Virus record (IMG/VR): IMGVR_UViG_3300025840_000201
Span: 1-27,241 of that record
Origin: a virus
Reading direction: 5' to 3' (one strand)
Length of the DNA stretch: 27,241 nucleotides
In this document: piece after piece, positions 11,234-22,889 of the stretch
Numbering within the stretch: position 1 is the stretch's first letter
Layout of the letters: each line of letters begins with the position of its first letter
The notes under the pieces: generated by a model
The model's input: only the letters and a program-made list of their open reading frames with translations
Told to the model about the DNA's origin: nothing
Databases searched by the model: none
Program-made: the position numbers and the translations under genes

Positions 11234-11464
11234 ATGGAGTGGTTCACAGCGTTATACATAGAATATTCACTGCGTGGGATTGACATAGAAACATATTTGA
11301 TTTTGCCAGACTATGAGGCTTGTCAAATAGCAATCCGCGACAATGAAGATATGTATAAGTATTTCAACGTGGATAGCGATGTTAATATGTACTGTGTACG
11401 CACCAACACCCTATCCAGATCAATAAAGCCTAAACTTAGGCCAACCACCGATAAATCTTCTTAG
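11234..11464 (+). CDS. hypothetical protein, last early gene
   Basis: A 76-aa protein from the ATG at 11234, with GGGAG six bases before; a longer in-frame start at 11195 lies inside the MarR-like gene and is less likely. It has an aromatic N-terminus (MEWFTALYIEYSLRGIDIET), an acidic middle (DNEDMYKYFNVDSDVNMY) and a basic tail. No family is recognised. Its last 29 bases overlap the end of the convergent endolysin gene, so this point is the junction of the early plus-strand and late minus-strand regions. No terminator hairpin was seen between them. Confidence 0.6.
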   Translation: MEWFTALYIEYSLRGIDIETYLILPDYEACQIAIRDNEDMYKYFNVDSDVNMYCVRTNTLSRSIKPKLRPTTDKSS

Positions 11465-12059
11465 TCTTATCCATGCGGTCTTCTAGGCCATGATAGCCAC
11501 CGTTCACACGCTTGGTAATACTTTTGATAATACTATCAGTGACACCTTTATCAGCCATTGCGAACAAACCGTTTTTTTCAAAGAAGAATATCGCACTGTC
11601 CATCGCTAGTTCATCTGCAATTGGCGATGGATCATCAACTAAACTATCGCGCCCAATATGCTCTGCAAAGGCTCGTACGTTGTCCTTGCCTGTAAGCTGA
11701 ATGAAACCTTTTCCCGCGTACAGCCAGCCATCATTAGAACCAACCTTATTCCCCATGCGACCATTATAAACTCTGTTAGCAAGCTTCTGTGGGTTCATAG
11801 CATAAGGCTCTGCGTCTGCCTCAGACTTAAACCGTGAGGGCCATACCCGACACATTGTTTCTGCGCGGTAATTTAGGTTTTCTTCAGAAATCATAAAGTT
11901 GCCGCTTTCGTGCGCTGCCTGACCAAGCAAGTGTGCGCCACGGTTTGCATTCAATCCGTAATGCTCTGCAATAGCACGGGCAGTGTTAGGCCCAAACGCT
12001 CCGTCTGGTGTTACGCCGCATTTCTTTTGCAGCATCTTTAGTGCATCACCTCTAGCCAT
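11436..12059 (-). CDS. GH19-type endolysin
   Basis: A 207-aa lysis enzyme, last gene of the late operon, starting at the ATG at 12059 which overlaps the holin stop (TAATG). Residues about 8-34 resemble half of a peptidoglycan-binding repeat (LQKKCGVTPDGAFGPNTARA). The catalytic domain follows: AHESGNF with Glu51, then EENLNY with Glu59/Glu60, YNGRMGN, and GWLYAGKGFIQLTGKDN. It closes with ITKRVNGGYHGLEDR, as in chitinase-like GH19 lysozymes of phages, which hydrolyse the glycan strands of peptidoglycan. No signal peptide is seen, so export depends on the holin. The family is well supported. Confidence 0.9.
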   Translation of the reverse strand: MARGDALKMLQKKCGVTPDGAFGPNTARAIAEHYGLNANRGAHLLGQAAHESGNFMISEENLNYRAETMCRVWPSRFKSEADAEPYAMNPQKLANRVYNGRMGNKVGSNDGWLYAGKGFIQLTGKDNVRAFAEHIGRDSLVDDPSPIADELAMDSAIFFFEKNGLFAMADKGVTDSIIKSITKRVNGGYHGLEDRMDKTKKIYRWLA

Positions 12060-12463
12060 TACTTTGATACTCCCTTAAACTTCTCAAAGGTGCGCATCCC
12101 ACCTAAACCAAGCATTCCCAACAACACTGTCATCAGGCTTTGCATATCAAACTCTGGCAGTGGTGGATGCTGTAAATCAAACCACCCTGTCACAAAAAGT
12201 GTGACGGGTAAGCCCAAGAAGTGCCAGAACAACGCCAACCCGCAAGTCCAACCAACAAATGGACGCCACCCTGCTATGAAGATGTTGCGTGATTTAGCTT
12301 CCTCTTTGTTTATCTCTATCTGACCACGCGCCAACTCTTGTGCATGACGCTCTGCCATTGTTGCGATTTCGTGCGCAAGTTTGGCTTTCTGGTCTTTATC
12401 CTCAACAACCTTGTCAAGAATGTTGCTTACTGGATCAACCAGCTTTCCCAACAAATCAAGCAT
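12059..12463 (-). CDS. holin (3TM GTA-holin type)
   Basis: A 134-aa protein. Residues 1-60 are an amphipathic charged helix (DKDQKAKLAHEIATMAERHA). FIAGWRPFVGWTCGLAL (about 63-79) then opens the membrane part, with hydrophobic segments at about 70-92 and 108-123 and a LLGMLGLGGMRTFEKFKGV ending. The GWRP-F-GW and 'LGLGG-RT-EK' blocks identify the holin family first described in alphaproteobacterial gene transfer agents. It makes the membrane hole that releases the endolysin. The ATG at 12463 overlaps the stop of a 31-aa frame, and the stop overlaps the endolysin start, so lysis genes are tightly coupled. Confidence 0.88.
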   Translation of the reverse strand: MLDLLGKLVDPVSNILDKVVEDKDQKAKLAHEIATMAERHAQELARGQIEINKEEAKSRNIFIAGWRPFVGWTCGLALFWHFLGLPVTLFVTGWFDLQHPPLPEFDMQSLMTVLLGMLGLGGMRTFEKFKGVSK

Positions 12464-14464: not shown

Positions 14465-15424
14465 TTATGAGCAGTCTGCGATAACGCCGTGTGCTTTCTC
14501 TGAAGTGACCTGTAGGCCATATTCCGCAGAGATCAAACGGCGCTCTGACAAACCAGTTTTTGCAAGAGGCTCTTGCTTCGCTGTTTGCAAGAATGCAACC
14601 GCTGCATAGTTTGGATCAAGCACGAACACGTCACGCGCACGAATGTGACGCGCTGGAACAATTTGAAGTTCACCAAAATCAGAGATGTAAACGTCAATTG
14701 CTGCGTTCAACTTGCTATCTTCTGCTTCTTTGTAACGTGTTGCGTTACCTGTGAAAGTAGAGATAGTTTGCTTGTTTGATGATCCACAAAGAACAACGCT
14801 TGGCTCTGCGCCTGCATCCCAACAATCAGCAATGACACCCTTTAGGATTGTCTCTGTGATTGCACGTTGTGTACCATCTGTTGCTGCCGCATCAGGATAA
14901 CCAGCAGAACCAGAACCTGATGTTGTACCGTCAGCACCGCCTGTGCCACGCGCAGTGTTTGTTGTCAAAAACGCTGGTAGACCCGCAGTTTGACGCGCTG
15001 TGCCTGATGCACCCGCTGACGCTGCTACGTTGTCCAACAACATTTTTTCCATGTCGCGCTTCATTTCAGACAGCTTGTAAGCAACTTGCTTCGCAACTGT
15101 TTGAGCATCTGCAACACCGTTTACCGCTTGGTTTGTTGATGATACTTCAACAACTTTCGCAGAAATCTGTGTGTAGTTACCCTTACGAACCGCGTTTGTT
15201 GGTGCAGTGTTGGAAAGGCCAACGTCACCCTCAATCTGGCGGTTTGATGCAGCCGCTGCAAGGTCTACTTCACTCCACTCAAAGTAAGTGTTGTCTACGT
15301 TGCGTGTGCCGATTGTTGACATGAAAATAGTTTCAGTCGGGCTGATTGAGGCTAATGCGGGTGCAAGATCCTCTCTTATTGTGCTTACATCGTAAGTTTC
15401 GTTTGTGTTTGCTGTTACAGCCAT
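14465..15424 (-). CDS. major capsid protein (DUF5309/SU10-like)
   Basis: A 319-aa protein from the ATG at 15424, with AAAGGA about nine bases before, the strong initiation expected for capsid. The N-terminus has EDLAPALASISPTETIFMST and NTYFEWSEVDLAAA (about residues 46-59) followed by NRQIEGD. The C-terminus has IVPARHIRARDVFVLDPNYA (about 257-276) and TGLSERRLISAEYGLQVTSE. The 'FEW--D-L' and 'EG' signature matches the DUF5309 family of HK97-fold capsid proteins (phage SU10 type). It forms the icosahedral shell. Gly/Ala/Ser-rich residues 136-185 are probably a surface loop. The gene follows the scaffold, as expected. Confidence 0.88.
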   Translation of the reverse strand: MAVTANTNETYDVSTIREDLAPALASISPTETIFMSTIGTRNVDNTYFEWSEVDLAAAASNRQIEGDVGLSNTAPTNAVRKGNYTQISAKVVEVSSTNQAVNGVADAQTVAKQVAYKLSEMKRDMEKMLLDNVAASAGASGTARQTAGLPAFLTTNTARGTGGADGTTSGSGSAGYPDAAATDGTQRAITETILKGVIADCWDAGAEPSVVLCGSSNKQTISTFTGNATRYKEAEDSKLNAAIDVYISDFGELQIVPARHIRARDVFVLDPNYAAVAFLQTAKQEPLAKTGLSERRLISAEYGLQVTSEKAHGVIADCS

Positions 15425-16431: not shown

Positions 16432-16666
16432 GGTGCTTTCCCTTCCGTTGTACTAGCGCCAAGGCATCTACATCAGCCTGTAGTTGACGCTCTATTGCTG
16501 TTAATGCCCTCAAAATGGCGTGAGCATCCTCACGTTTCTCCACCTCTTGGGCGCTGCTATCTGCGAAAGTCCTCATTTGGGTGTCCCGCAAATCCTTTAT
16601 GGTTTCCTTAAACCATTCATTCTCTAACAGTGATTTTGAGCGTTTAGCTCTTTGCTCAATATCCAC
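16418..16666 (-). CDS. small helical head-morphogenesis protein
   Basis: An 82-aa protein starting with GTG at 16666, inside the last codons of the portal gene, with GGGA seven bases before. It is all-helical and charged (MDIEQRAKRSKSLLENEWFK). A SSAQEVEKREDAHAILRALT stretch (about residues 37-56) then leads to a final ERQLQADVDALALVQRKG helix. Similar short helical proteins sit between portal and scaffold in many phages and have no firm function. The tight overlaps with portal (11 bases) and scaffold (14 bases) show that it belongs to the head operon. Confidence 0.7.
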   Translation of the reverse strand: MDIEQRAKRSKSLLENEWFKETIKDLRDTQMRTFADSSAQEVEKREDAHAILRALTAIERQLQADVDALALVQRKGKHRGND

Positions 16667-18767
16667 CTTGCATTCCCATCATCTGCGCGTTGTGTTCGCG
16701 TACTGCGTCTTGCTCTGCTTTCACGCTTGCTACATCAACCGCTGTTCCGTACTTGCCAAGTATCTCAGCAACCTTAACCGCCAAGTCTTGAACCATGTCA
16801 TCACGCGCCAAGTCATCATCCATGCCCAACTTGTGCATCTTATACTGATAGTCCATCTGAGCCTTAGTCATGTCTACTTGCGCTTTCGTTTGCGCTTTCA
16901 TGGCTTCGGTCTGCATAAACGCTGCATTCGGATCAGGCTGTTGCGCTTGCATCATTGCTTGCTGCTGCGCCATCTGCTGTTGCTGCATCATCATCTGTTG
17001 CTCAATCTCTGGGGTCATCGGCATGAAGTAACGATCCGCATTGCGCAATCCACCAAGAGCCAACAAATCAGCCAAAGTGTTTCTGATCTGCGTAAGCGTT
17101 ACAACACCGTTCATAGGGCCATACGCTTGGTAGATACCTTGCTGTATCTGTAGGGCTTGCTGTAGGGCCGCTGCGCGTTCATTCTCGCGTCCCGTGCCAA
17201 TACCTACGTTGACAATCAAATCCATGTCTGTGTCCCAAGCTCTGGGGTCTACAGGGACAAATGAACCATTCAGGCGCATGATTTCTTCGTTGTCAGTATT
17301 CTTAACCATCAAATCCAACATGATGCGGAACATCTGGCGCATACCGCCCTCTGCAAAGTTACGCGCAATCACCTCTGCTTGACCTGTCTGACCTTCCATA
17401 GATGCTGCAACCGCTGTTGCTGTAGAAGATGCCAATACGTCTGGATCAAGACCCTGCGCCATTTTAGAAACGCCTGTCTTGTTATCTACTAACTGGTCAA
17501 AGTATTGCAGTGCTGGAAGTGTCTGACCCGCTGTAAACGGTACTGCCATCTCCATGACGCTGTTTGGCGCTTTTACCCGCACAATCCGCCCGATCTCGTT
17601 GTTCAGCAAATCATCAATCGCAACCTGACCATCAACAATCTGCAACGCTGGGTTATTAGTCAGAGCCACGTTATCAAGAACACCGCGCAGCATCGCTGTA
17701 GCCGCGTCCTGATCGTCCATTACCAAATCAACCAATGAAGACCCAAAGAAAGCGTGTGGCTCTGGATCGCACTCAAAGATCGCGTATGGTGCTGTATCTG
17801 CTTCGTAGAAGTTCAACAGTTTGAACGTAGCGCCTGCGCACAAGAACTGATACAGGCGCGGAATACCCGTACCCTCAATGTCCAATTCCATGTATGCGTT
17901 TGTAACTGTGATTTTCTTAGAAGCGGCAGAGATGTTTTCGTCTTCGCCCTCATCTACAGCATAACCACGGCGCTCAAACTCAGCCTCATCATCTACAACG
18001 CTGTACTCTGTGCTGTCTAACCCAGCCAAATCATCAATGCTAAATCCCATCGCAATTAGATCAGATACGCGCATTTCTGTGCTGTGACCGCACACATAGA
18101 AGTTATCAATTCCACGCGCATTGCGGTCTACAAAGAAATCTTCTGGGGGAACGCTCTCAATGCAGATGTCGCCGTGAGGAATAGACCGCGCAATCTTTAC
18201 GTCATGCTCTGGTACTTCAATCTCCATGCCCATCTGATCCATAGAAATGCTCATGCGCATCTCATGCTCAAGAACCTCTACGTCATCGTCTTCAATGATT
18301 ACCGCAAATTCTTCATCGGTCAGATTAGTGAAGGTATGGATTTCTGTTTCCATTTCCTCATTGTAATAAACGTATGCAATCCCAGCTTTCTTAACCATAG
18401 CATCTTGGAATACATCGTTTAGTACGCGGTATCCGTCATGCTGCTGGAACTTATAAGAAATATAGCTAGTCGCTTGCTCTGCTGCTGCAACATCCTCTGG
18501 GCCACGCGGTACAAACTCTACAGGCTTTTCGCTAGTAAGGAATATGCGCTGAATGCTTGGCTTTAGACCACGAACAACCTCACGGCACTTTGTTGCCACA
18601 ACTCTGCTGCGACCTTCCTCATAGCCAATGTCTACCTCACCATCAAAGTAACGCTGTGCCTTGATACGTTGCGGTGCAATCTCGCTGTCTACAAAGTCCA
18701 CCGCGTCTTGGATTGCTTTGGAAACAATGCTTTCAATCTGTGTCTGATCTAGTGGTTCTAGTCTCAT
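16656..18767 (-). CDS. portal protein (P22-like)
   Basis: A 703-aa protein from the ATG at 18767, with AAAGG seven bases before and a four-base ATGA overlap with the upstream gene. It contains the wing and stem features of P22-type portals: RIKAQRYFDGEVDIGYEEGR near residue 40, then ESVPPEDFFVDRNARGID in the middle and LDNVALTNNPALQIVDGQVA near residue 365. A GVSKMAQGLDPDVLASSTAT block marks the stem. The C-terminus is a long Gln/Met-rich coiled coil (about 595-700) like the P22 barrel. The ring of twelve copies forms the packaging channel and tail attachment site. The length equals P22-type portals of about 700-725 residues. Confidence 0.92.
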   Translation of the reverse strand: MRLEPLDQTQIESIVSKAIQDAVDFVDSEIAPQRIKAQRYFDGEVDIGYEEGRSRVVATKCREVVRGLKPSIQRIFLTSEKPVEFVPRGPEDVAAAEQATSYISYKFQQHDGYRVLNDVFQDAMVKKAGIAYVYYNEEMETEIHTFTNLTDEEFAVIIEDDDVEVLEHEMRMSISMDQMGMEIEVPEHDVKIARSIPHGDICIESVPPEDFFVDRNARGIDNFYVCGHSTEMRVSDLIAMGFSIDDLAGLDSTEYSVVDDEAEFERRGYAVDEGEDENISAASKKITVTNAYMELDIEGTGIPRLYQFLCAGATFKLLNFYEADTAPYAIFECDPEPHAFFGSSLVDLVMDDQDAATAMLRGVLDNVALTNNPALQIVDGQVAIDDLLNNEIGRIVRVKAPNSVMEMAVPFTAGQTLPALQYFDQLVDNKTGVSKMAQGLDPDVLASSTATAVAASMEGQTGQAEVIARNFAEGGMRQMFRIMLDLMVKNTDNEEIMRLNGSFVPVDPRAWDTDMDLIVNVGIGTGRENERAAALQQALQIQQGIYQAYGPMNGVVTLTQIRNTLADLLALGGLRNADRYFMPMTPEIEQQMMMQQQQMAQQQAMMQAQQPDPNAAFMQTEAMKAQTKAQVDMTKAQMDYQYKMHKLGMDDDLARDDMVQDLAVKVAEILGKYGTAVDVASVKAEQDAVREHNAQMMGMQGGY

Positions 18768-20665
18768 TGTAGCGCCTTTCTTGCCCCTTCATATGTTTCC
18801 AGTGTTATCGGGCCTAAAAGACCTGACGCTGGGCCAGCGGTTTCCCGCGCTCCAAAAGTTGCACCAGACTTAGTAATAAACGGCGCAATTCTACCAATGA
18901 ACTCTTGTGCCTGCGCTATTGCGCGTTCATCTGTTATAGCGCGACGAACTAAATCAGGATTTTCAGATACTAAGATTTGTGCAATCTTGTTGCGCTCTGC
19001 ATCCGTTAAATCACGGCTAAAGCTATCTACAAATTTTCTTGTCACAGATAGCAAAGCGTTAATATCACCAGATGCTGCGGCTACACCCTCTGCTGCTGTA
19101 ACGCCTGCATTCTGTGCTTGACGGGCCATGATGGTTTCTGCTGTTTGTGTGTTGCGTAGAACTGTCTGCGCTACATCTTCACTCTCTACAGCAATGTCTA
19201 GCTTACGCAAAATAGCCGCTTGGTCTTTTGGATCAGGGATCAATGCCCGTAAAAGCATTCCTTCTTTCTGACCTTCTTCCAACATTCTACGCAGAACTGT
19301 ACGCTCTTGACCTGTGGTAAATTTACCTTGCAACGCAGCTAGGAACCCAGCGCGGAAACTTGCCAATGTCTGTGGGTCTTTGGCCCATTTATCCTCTAAA
19401 TCAACCATGACCTCATTCACATCACCAGCTAATGCCCTACGCCCAGCTTGGAATGCATCGCGGTTTGAACGCACTGCCGCTGCTTGCGCCCTTGTAGACA
19501 TCAAATCTGGAACATCTACGTCCAAAGCAGAGCGTAATGATTGCTCAATATCTTTTGTCGCACCAGATAAATCTATATCACCCGCTATTTGTTCTTTGCG
19601 AGAAGTTTGACTTAACACGCGCCGTATCTTTTCAGCTTCCTCAACTGTAGGTCTACGCGCAAACCTTACGATACCGTCTTCTCCAACTGAATATAAATCT
19701 TCAACACCTTGTCGCCGCGCAATCTTGTTTAGACCTTCACCTACATCGGGAGCATTTTCCAGAACTCTTGCAAGTTCCATAAATACATCATTGCTTACAG
19801 GCTCAGTTTTAAACGGCGCATATGCTGCACGTTCTGCGGCTGCTGTTTCTGCTTCACTGGTGGCACGGCGGCGAACTGCCGTTGCTGCTGGATCAGAACT
19901 AACATCATCTAAGTAGCTTGCAATTTCTGCTTGCGCTGCACTACGCAGTTTGCGTGGTCTTTGCTCTAAAGCAGTTTGGATCGTACCTGCCGCTGGGCCA
20001 CCTTGACCTCTTAGTGCTTTCACCGCTGCTGCAATCGTGCGGTTTTCAGCTAATATCTTACCATCAACGATGTCTTGCACAATCTCATCTGGTGTTTTGC
20101 CTGTTTGCTCTACAAGTCGCTGTATTTCGTTTTCTACAACAGAGGCACCCTTGCGACCTGTAGTACGCCGCGCTGCATCAACCAAAGCCTCAAATCCTTG
20201 TATCCCATACTGGGCCAGCTTACCGCCTACAACTCCACCACCCGCGCCAAATGCTACCCCTGAAGGAACTCTTGCCGCTCTCTCAGAAACACCACCTTCG
20301 CCAGTACCAAACGCATATGCACCACCCTCTAAACCGCCGCGTAATGCCAACCGCCCAGCAGTTGGAATAGCTGCGCCACCGCCAGTAAACAACATTGGAG
20401 CAACAGCACCGCCTAACTCTAATGCCATAGCTTCTTTCGGGTATGCTTCTTGATATGCTTTTACGCCGCTGCGGATTTCTTCCAGTATTTCTTCTACTGG
20501 GCGACCTGTTGCCATAGACCGCGTGTAAGCCTCTAATTCATCAGCAAATCCAAGCGTTAGACCCTGCGCTGCGGTGCGAAATCTCTCTGTTGGAACCTCA
20601 CCAGCAGGCGTGACACCCTGATTGGCTTGGGCTACAAGTTCCCGTAATTTCTTTTCATCAGCCAT
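18764..20665 (-). CDS. internal virion or DNA-ejection-like protein
   Basis: A 633-aa protein from the ATG at 20665, overlapping the tail lysozyme gene by eight bases. The N-terminus has QGLTLGFADELEAYTRSMAT (about 34-53), a pattern I know from phage internal virion proteins. A glycine-zipper-like hydrophobic region follows at about 84-150 (GGAVAPMLFTGGGAAIPTAG then VAFGAGGGVVGGKLAQ), which could insert in the host membrane. The rest is long helical and coiled (RKLRSAAQAEIASYLDDVSS and many similar). The combination suggests a protein that is packed in the virion and ejected to help form a channel through the envelope. The family assignment is by pattern and position, not by a catalytic motif. 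Confidence 0.6.
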   Translation of the reverse strand: MADEKKLRELVAQANQGVTPAGEVPTERFRTAAQGLTLGFADELEAYTRSMATGRPVEEILEEIRSGVKAYQEAYPKEAMALELGGAVAPMLFTGGGAAIPTAGRLALRGGLEGGAYAFGTGEGGVSERAARVPSGVAFGAGGGVVGGKLAQYGIQGFEALVDAARRTTGRKGASVVENEIQRLVEQTGKTPDEIVQDIVDGKILAENRTIAAAVKALRGQGGPAAGTIQTALEQRPRKLRSAAQAEIASYLDDVSSDPAATAVRRRATSEAETAAAERAAYAPFKTEPVSNDVFMELARVLENAPDVGEGLNKIARRQGVEDLYSVGEDGIVRFARRPTVEEAEKIRRVLSQTSRKEQIAGDIDLSGATKDIEQSLRSALDVDVPDLMSTRAQAAAVRSNRDAFQAGRRALAGDVNEVMVDLEDKWAKDPQTLASFRAGFLAALQGKFTTGQERTVLRRMLEEGQKEGMLLRALIPDPKDQAAILRKLDIAVESEDVAQTVLRNTQTAETIMARQAQNAGVTAAEGVAAASGDINALLSVTRKFVDSFSRDLTDAERNKIAQILVSENPDLVRRAITDERAIAQAQEFIGRIAPFITKSGATFGARETAGPASGLLGPITLETYEGARKALQ

Positions 20666-22088
20666 TTAGTGCCTCCAAATATTCTTTACGGTACTGTTCT
20701 GTAGCTGTCTGCCAATGCGTAACCCAAGCAGCATCATCACCTGCAAACTCTACTGGACGCGGTGGCACTTGCAAGATTGTTGGCTTTTTCAACAATTCAC
20801 CAGAGTATCTGAAATCTGGTAGAATATCGTCATCAAAACCAGCTTCGGTTGCGTAAGTGATGTATTGATTTCTCGTGTTGTCGTATAGGCTTTCTGCTTC
20901 TGTGTACAATTTGTTTGCACGATCAACAAAATCTGCACGTTGCGCTGCGGTGAGCAATGTACCATCTTTTAGCTTTTGAACCATCGCTGCAATACGTTCA
21001 CCATAACCACCCGCTGCCGCTGCTGCTGCAAATTCACCCTCTCGGACAACAGACTGAGGATCAAGCATTTTCATGTAGTTAAAGATCAAAGACAAGTCAC
21101 CCGCTGCGCTTGGCTCTTTGACGCTTGCAGAGATACGACCATAAGCATTTGCAACTTTGTCAAAATCTTTAACGCGCTGCAAACCAGTAAACTCTTTACG
21201 CGCCTCTGAAATCATTTTTGTTTTATCTTTTGCAGAAATCGGTTGCTTCAGGCTTTCTGATAAATACGTTGCCATTGCTGTTTTTGCATCAATCGCTTTT
21301 GTCTCTAAAGCCGCTAATACTTGTGCCGCTATTCTGTCTCCACCTCGCGCCTTTGCTTGCAACATTGCAATAGTCTGGTTTCGTGATCCACTCGCTAGAC
21401 GTTGCGCACCACGCGCTCTAATCTGCTCACCCATACGCGCTTCTGGAAGGATCAATGCATCTAGTGCTTGTGCAAAGTTCTCTGGGCCTGTTAAGCCTGT
21501 TGTCTGGTTAGGCTGCATAAACCTTTGAAGCAATCCTTGTAAACCTTGCTTTTGCTGTTGCTGGGGAAAGATAGTGCCAGCAGTCGGTACTCCCGATCCA
21601 AATGTTGTTTGTACCATTGGTTTTTCTCCGTTCATTCCCGCAAATTTTAGCAGATTTTCCAATCTAGGGCCACGCCATTGCGCAATGCCCAATGCGCCTT
21701 GACCACCACCACTTGGATTGTATGCCGCTGGGTCTATTGATCCAAAACTTTCAGCCATTAAATTCCCAACAATACCCGATGCTTGTGGCGGGTTTAGACC
21801 TTTGTTCAGCAGGTAGTTATAAGCAATCGCAGCGTTCTGCGATAATCCTTGTGGGTTCAATGGGTCTTCCATACTTCTGAAGACTTCCAAAGCGTAATTC
21901 TTACGTTTATCCAATGCGGAGCCACCCGAACGCTCAAACAGCTTTTCAAAAGCCTCTGCATAGTCTTGCGGCGTAATATAACCACCAGACTGAAACGCCT
22001 CTAAGGTTTTCTTCTCTGGCCCCTCTAGCTCAGACCACAGAAAGTCTAACTGCGTTTGAAAGGGTATCCGTGGAAAAGGGCTGTCCAT
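20658..22088 (-). CDS. tail lysozyme protein with swapped domain halves
   Basis: A 476-aa protein from the ATG at 22088, with AAAGG six bases before. The N-terminus, residues 11-66 (QTQLDFLWSELEGPEKKTLE ... FERSGGSALDKRKNYA), matches the C-terminal half of the phage tail lysozyme domain (Phage_lysozyme2 type). Residues about 84-151 (AYNYLLNKGLNPPQASGIVG, NLMAESFGSID with Glu113, then QGALGIAQWRGPRLENLLKFA) match the N-terminal half including the catalytic Glu. The halves are therefore in reversed order, joined by EDPLNPQG. Residues 160-476 are Gln-rich and then long helical, like an ejected internal protein. It probably opens peptidoglycan at infection. The domain recognition is strong; activity is unproved. 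Confidence 0.75.
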   Translation of the reverse strand: MDSPFPRIPFQTQLDFLWSELEGPEKKTLEAFQSGGYITPQDYAEAFEKLFERSGGSALDKRKNYALEVFRSMEDPLNPQGLSQNAAIAYNYLLNKGLNPPQASGIVGNLMAESFGSIDPAAYNPSGGGQGALGIAQWRGPRLENLLKFAGMNGEKPMVQTTFGSGVPTAGTIFPQQQQKQGLQGLLQRFMQPNQTTGLTGPENFAQALDALILPEARMGEQIRARGAQRLASGSRNQTIAMLQAKARGGDRIAAQVLAALETKAIDAKTAMATYLSESLKQPISAKDKTKMISEARKEFTGLQRVKDFDKVANAYGRISASVKEPSAAGDLSLIFNYMKMLDPQSVVREGEFAAAAAAGGYGERIAAMVQKLKDGTLLTAAQRADFVDRANKLYTEAESLYDNTRNQYITYATEAGFDDDILPDFRYSGELLKKPTILQVPPRPVEFAGDDAAWVTHWQTATEQYRKEYLEALNG

Positions 22089-22097
22089 AGTAAACCT

Positions 22098-22889
22098 TTA
22101 TTTAGGCATCATCTGTGCGCCAAGCTGCAAGTAATTAAAGAGGCTTGGCTGGAACGATTGCTGCTGACCTGTCACATTCGGCACACCTGATAGAGTGCTT
22201 AGAAGTGTACTTAGCCCTTGTGCTGGCGCACCTGTGTATCTCTGGAAGCCGCCACGCGCTTGGTCAATCAACTGTTGCTGGATTTGACGCTGCATAGCAC
22301 CTTCACGCGCTTGTTGCTGCTGTATCTGCTGACCGTAGCCAAAGGACTGACGACCTAAGTTTCCTAGCTGCGAAGCTGCGCCTAGACGCTGCTGTGCGCC
22401 TTGCAAACCTGCCATCTGGTTCAACTGCTGCGCCGTCATACCAGATTGTGCGCCAAACTGTGCTGCTGCGTTTTGTGCTGCTGCTTGGTTTTGTGCTGCT
22501 TGTAACGCTGTATTAAAGCCCTGCTGACGTAGCTGACCTATGGTATTTGCTGCTTGCTTGCCGTATCCCAAACGTGTCTGCGCTTCTGCAACGCCTTGGC
22601 GCGATCCACCAAAAGCATTAGCAGCTTCTGCTTGTGCGCCCATCTGGTTCAATGCAATGTCTTGTGCTTCACCAATGTCTGCCAGTGTTTGTTGAACTAC
22701 TTGGCTTTCGTATGGGTTTTGAAACCCAGAAATCAACTGTGTCGGATCGGCTGCTTGATATGATGTCGCTTGAACCTGTGAGGGTTGGTAGGTCATACCT
22801 GCCGCTGTGCCTGCCAATGCGCCTTGTTGCGCTCCCGATGCTTGTGCGAACGGGTTGGCTGTCATTTGTGGATTTGCGCCTGCGCCCAT
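22098..22889 (-). CDS. Gln/Ala-rich internal or tail protein
   Basis: A 263-aa protein from the ATG at 22889, with AGGAG six to seven bases before, overlapping the stop of the upstream gene. It is very rich in Gln, Ala and Gly. FQNPYESQVVQQTLADIGEA (about residues 56-75) and then NAFGGSRQGVAEAQTRLGYG (91-110) are blocks I recognise from podovirus-like marine phages ('NPY---VV--TL-D' and 'AFGGSR-GVAEA'), in genes next to internal virion proteins. Long Gln/Ala helices follow. Probably a virion protein ejected or placed in the tail; the exact role is not known. Confidence 0.65.
   Translation of the reverse strand: MGAGANPQMTANPFAQASGAQQGALAGTAAGMTYQPSQVQATSYQAADPTQLISGFQNPYESQVVQQTLADIGEAQDIALNQMGAQAEAANAFGGSRQGVAEAQTRLGYGKQAANTIGQLRQQGFNTALQAAQNQAAAQNAAAQFGAQSGMTAQQLNQMAGLQGAQQRLGAASQLGNLGRQSFGYGQQIQQQQAREGAMQRQIQQQLIDQARGGFQRYTGAPAQGLSTLLSTLSGVPNVTGQQQSFQPSLFNYLQLGAQMMPK

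Follow-up and report, generated by a model that had tools for sequence, protein, structure and literature searches.

The locus and the 476-aa protein

The analysed window is the whole stretch of 27,241 nucleotides of the IMG/VR virus record IMGVR_UViG_3300025840_000201, and the gene studied here encodes a protein whose N-terminal part matches the phage tail lysozyme family PF18013 (Phage_lysozyme2) in two stretches. The half that normally comes first in this family is referred to as A and the normally second half as B, so that the protein of the window has the order B-A. The features of the locus are listed in Table 1. The gene belongs to a virion module beside portal, scaffold and capsid genes, the synteny of which was found in about 20 contigs. 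The window has its own holin and endolysin, and lysis therefore need not depend on the 476-aa protein.

Table 1. Features of the hydrolase locus and its surroundings in the window.
Feature	Position	Strand	Remarks
Separate endolysin	11436-12059		
Separate holin	12059-12463		
SU10-type major capsid protein	14465-15424	-	PF17236, E 2.3e-88
SU10-type portal protein	16656-18767	-	703 aa; PF23899, E 2e-180; marks the podovirus type
Downstream gene, phrog_5880	18764-20665	-	633 aa; neighbour in most relatives
Virion (ejection-type) protein with N-terminal permuted lysozyme	20658-22088	-	476 aa; open reading frame and syntenic homologues
C-terminal domain phrog_13634, residues 295-416 (within 290-430)	20841-21206 (within 20799-21221)	-	Conserved
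Low-complexity linker, residues 157-200	21489-21620	-	Low model confidence where covered (157-162)
A half, residues 85-156	21621-21836	-	AYNYLLNKGL..QASGIVGNLMAES...GIAQWRGPR; N-terminal half of canonical PF18013
Glu113 (putative catalytic)	21750-21752	-	In alignment with Glu45 of phi29 gp13, proposed as catalytic
New linker, residues 72-84	21837-21875	-	Old C-terminus to old N-terminus
B half, residues 10-71	21876-22061	-	QTQLDFLWSEL...FERSGG...R..YA; C-terminal half of canonical PF18013
Glu20, within the B half	22029-22031	-	Conservation count
Shine-Dalgarno-like AAAGG	22095-22099	-	6 bases ahead of the ATG, from sequence
Upstream gene	22098-22889	-	263 aa; low-complexity, Gln/Ala-rich, virion-type

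The ATG lies nine bases past the stop (22098) of the upstream gene, so that no first half is concealed ahead of it, and since the permuted relatives all start 6-13 residues ahead of the common motif PxFxTQL, this start codon is considered real. The view of the earlier note, that the ATG with its Shine-Dalgarno sequence excludes a half hidden upstream, is thereby borne out. The product of the upstream gene contains no lysozyme half; across the relatives, a low-complexity protein of 214 to 589 aa is always encoded directly upstream of the hydrolase gene. Full-length homologues including the permuted domain are present in five other contigs with 56-99% identity, so that an assembly artefact is ruled out, and many further contigs carry the permuted domain with identities within the domain down to 48%. 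The broken copy of one relative (L010, 6001-6721) has a frameshift within the A half, near GNL/MAES, which may be a true lesion or an error of sequencing. For the C-terminal domain phrog_13634, neither an annotated function nor a solved relative was found by sequence. In dozens of phages, this domain, with its motif of the type FNYMKMLDP.SVVREGEFA, follows N-terminal regions that differ widely from each other.

Order, conservation and predicted fold of the two halves

Searched as a whole, the 476-aa protein matches PF18013 with an E-value of 1e-24. When residues 1-76 were scanned alone, residues 11-71 matched positions 76-138 of the 140 profile positions (E 1.1e-7, above the Pfam cut-off), and in a separate scan of residues 74-161, residues 85-156 matched positions 2-71 (E 3.9e-17). 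The first half of the family thus does not precede the second half in this protein, as the earlier note had read from the motifs. In addition, the profiles of 23 permuted and 29 canonical sequences were compared with hhalign. In native order, two crossing alignments were obtained, one for A spanning canonical columns 3-72 of 139 (70 columns, E 8.8e-33) and one for B spanning canonical columns 74-136 (63 columns, E 4.1e-17). After the permuted columns had been re-sorted to the canonical order, a single alignment of 135 columns with 44% identity remained (E 7.4e-50). The A and B halves therefore tile the canonical domain without loss, overlap or duplication, and residues 157-200 showed no remnant of another B half.

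On both sides of the cut, the permuted set retains those residues that hardly vary in the canonical set. Conserved alike in both sets are G108, N109, E113, S114, G134, Q137 and R142 in the A half, and Q13, E20, E52, R53 and R62 in the B half. Glu113 is kept in all 23 permuted and all 67 canonical sequences, and Glu20 in 22 of 22 permuted and 66 of 67 canonical sequences. The Glu of the GNxxES motif and the G..Q(W)..R cleft motif of PF18013 are present, with E113, S114, G134, Q137 and R142 found in 23/23 permuted sequences, while position 138 is Trp in 18 of the 23 and Phe in the others. The dN/dS values of about 0.02-0.2 indicate purifying selection on A as well as on B. By sequence, the best solved relative is the N-terminal muramidase of phi29 gp13 (PDB 3csr, 3csq, 3ct5), which is matched by the A half with a profile E-value of 3e-5 and, within this one hit, by the B half weakly. 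The residue of gp13 with which Glu113 is aligned has been proposed as catalytic (PMC10394673).

For the structure prediction, residues 2-163 were submitted to AlphaFold2 together with the 23 permuted sequences. The best of five models brings both parts into one compact domain with a mean pLDDT of 86 and a pTM of 0.84, and the other four models reached a pLDDT of 76-79. The linker between B and A (model residues 71-80) was modelled with a mean pLDDT of 71. A canonical control, L170, modelled with the 29 canonical sequences, gave a pTM of 0.91. The helix lengths are 13, 8, 13 and 16, then 12, 14, (short strands) and 10 in the permuted model, and 10, 15, (strands) and 13, then 13, 8, 13 and 15 in the control, so that the permuted model is predicted to contain the helices of the canonical domain in rotated order. 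In order-dependent Foldseek searches, the control matched phi29 gp13 in the PDB (TM 0.78, E 1e-5), and the permuted model had no credible full-length match in the PDB and only half-length tail lysozyme matches among viral models. Such half-length matches are expected, since Foldseek needs the same chain order. Order-dependent searches thus detect just one half of the permuted domain, with consequences for its annotation.

Distribution and position of the permuted domain

To sort the proteins of the scanned viral contigs, separate A and B profiles were used. This resulted in 173 distinct proteins, 45 of which have the order B-A and 122 the order A-B, and the remaining six, with one recognised half, are fragments or have a diverged second half. 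A mixed order or an extra half (BAB, ABA, ABAB) occurred in none of the 173. Since 45 distinct proteins share the order B-A, the domain is regarded as a permuted variant of PF18013 and not as an ordinary member. It resembles the family in that both halves match, the invariant residues are kept and the domain is attached to virion proteins, but differs from it in the reversed halves and in being always placed at the extreme N-terminus. In every one of the 45 permuted proteins, the first residue of the B half falls between 6 and 13; by contrast, no more than 19 of 114 canonical copies are located at the N-terminus. The linker between B and A comprises 10-15 residues in 45/45 permuted proteins, and the loop between A and B in the canonical proteins is mostly 7-8 residues long. 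The profile evidence, the predicted structure and the homologues of the same order agree with each other and support the natural circular permutation that the earlier note had put forward as one reading. As far as the profile scans and the structure prediction reach, neither of the outcomes that the note named as refuting its observation came up.

Among the matches examined, the cultured phages of the searched collection showed the canonical order alone. Two scans of the genome collection with exact peptide patterns, which are weak evidence, found no permuted relatives. The order B-A was at first indicated for the cultured Bacillus phage P59 and for Staphylococcus phages by single tblastn pieces spanning both halves. 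This assignment was rejected, as the B profile detects the downstream copy alone, a search with B by itself matches just the copy that follows A, and the pieces are extensions across a helical, low-complexity stretch.

The permuted domain occurs in two genomic contexts and in two unrelated kinds of proteins. In the first context, to which the window belongs, it is part of ejection-type proteins encoded by podoviruses whose portal and capsid are of the SU10 type. The second is a protein of about 1085 aa (phrog_11190) in a myovirus baseplate cluster, which adjoins genes for the gp53-like baseplate wedge and the gp5-like hub of T4-type myoviruses. In one representative of 1082 aa (L162, 4749-7997), a C-terminal stretch resembles M15-type peptidases by eye (GSGRHNGFAAD...HHFDIA); the stretch had no Pfam match and is possibly a second cell wall enzyme.

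In the podoviruses, the orthologous position between the gene for the 263-aa protein and the portal region is occupied by the permuted lysozyme in most relatives. Other enzymes were also found there: a canonical tail lysozyme (L235-237, which share their contigs with L107-109), an SLT transglycosylase (L008; PF01464, E 1.4e-25) and, in Octadecabacter Antarctic DB virus 2, whose portal is 47.5% identical, a Hydrolase_2 domain in gp19 (PF07486, E 3.9e-19). The close relatives L006 (4345-5262) and L007 (5980-6897) encode a 306-aa protein without a recognised N-terminal hydrolase at this position. The N-terminal slot is a hot spot of domain exchange with unchanged neighbours (L008, 5548-6867; L394, 8137-9708; L235-L237). 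That four kinds of cell wall hydrolases replace each other at this position argues strongly, if indirectly, for the permuted domain being functional as a cell wall hydrolase.

Function, origin and alternative explanations

The lysozyme domain is very probably a natural circular permutation of the PF18013 domain of the phi29 gp13 type, which would fold into the canonical active site and cleave peptidoglycan. Judging from the conserved residues and the gene position, it is most likely an active muramidase that would open the peptidoglycan during genome delivery. In terms of structure, the loop between A and B would have been opened to give the new N-terminus, and the old C-terminus would have been joined to the old N-terminus via the linker. 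Phi29 gp13 is a tail protein with the halves in canonical order, whereas the protein of the window would be of a head-borne ejection type. In phage SU10, gp20 is one of five ejection proteins, for which a transglycosylase activity degrading peptidoglycan has been described (PMC9509320), and T7 gp16 contains an N-terminal transglycosylase (PMC8954989). With both, the 476-aa protein would share the role of an ejected cell wall hydrolase, N-terminal also in T7 gp16, and with SU10 its type of portal and capsid; however, both are lytic transglycosylases in normal order. By analogy with SU10 (PMC9509320), the locus and the domain make-up suggest that the capsid contains the 476-aa protein and that it is let out together with the DNA. 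Packaged in the head, it would exit with or before the DNA and refold in the periplasm, where the N-terminal lysozyme would cut glycan strands and thereby let the channel through the wall, and the phrog_13634 region would perform the work of the ejection protein.

Circular permutations usually arise when a domain is duplicated and the outer parts are then lost. The earlier note had also considered that the domain is what is left of two tandem copies, with one half lost from each. This may describe the route of origin, but not the product, which is one complete domain and not debris, as shown by the exact tiling (columns 3-72 and 74-136) and by the absence of an extra half among the 173 proteins. 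If the two halves were degenerate, enzymatically dead and kept as a spacer or binding module, such a remnant stage would be conceivable from the usual route, and the frameshift in one relative would fit it. We consider this extremely unlikely, because none of the invariant residues for catalysis and fold has been lost, purifying selection acts on both halves, and these tile with neither overlap nor gap and are predicted as one compact domain. In a domain swap, the A half of each chain would be complemented by the B half of a neighbouring chain, and the enzyme would be active only in the oligomeric ejection complex and switched on after assembly. Such a swap could draw on the short linker, which is modelled at lower confidence, and on the fact that ejection proteins are generally multi-copy. 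Nevertheless, the single-chain prediction packs both halves together and a linker of 12 residues is long enough to span a small domain, which leaves this explanation very little probability.

The permutation could also have altered the substrate or turned the enzyme into a binding domain, for which the permuted NlpC/P60 members (YaeF/LRAT-like) provide a precedent in another cell wall hydrolase superfamily. These are likewise natural circular permutations, and their specificity is for lipids and not for peptidoglycan (PMC12994826), but they have the unrelated fold of a cysteine enzyme and in their case the permutation accompanies the lipid specificity. For the protein of the window, an altered substrate or a binding role is highly improbable, given that the putative catalytic Glu and the cleft residues are unchanged and that the gene position is interchangeable with three other types of cell wall hydrolases. 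The earlier note had proposed that this order could help the protein to unfold and refold on its way through the tail; that a true permutation was selected for this reason is very unlikely. The protein does sit in an ejection-type locus, but the same permuted domain is found in the phrog_11190 protein of the myovirus baseplate cluster, and canonical, non-permuted hydrolases fill the slot in relatives. The permutation is therefore not needed for ejection, and an advantage of this kind is not supported.

Engineered circular permutants of T4 lysozyme demonstrate that a lysozyme-type fold tolerates permutation, although they are man-made, have another cut site and belong to another family. To our knowledge, no natural circular permutation is known in the lysozyme superfamily, and no earlier report of a naturally permuted lysozyme was found in the literature searched. 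The permuted lysozyme is widespread enough to be studied and has close non-permuted counterparts at the same gene position, which offers a natural comparison for the effect of chain order on folding, regulation and delivery of a cell wall enzyme.

With regard to the origin of the permuted lysozyme, a domain duplication may have come first; a start codon would then have appeared within the first copy, and the second copy would have been truncated or fused beyond its A half. The extreme N-terminal position of the permuted form would follow from such a duplication with a new start codon in the first copy; a duplicated intermediate was not present among the 173 distinct proteins. The tree calculated from the A and B columns contains two well supported permuted clades, and one common origin of these clades is not rejected (AU p 0.44); the permutation may have arisen a single time and then been transferred, or on two occasions. 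A GGGxGA motif had been considered as proof of one origin and was dropped, since it is present in 6 of 67 canonical sequences. It is possible, if doubtful, that a single ancient permutation gave rise to a functionally distinct module, which would have been passed between the ejection proteins of podoviruses and the baseplate proteins of myoviruses while its extreme N-terminal position was kept; for instance, opening the loop between A and B and creating another N-terminus may alter the switching-on or the orientation of the enzyme.
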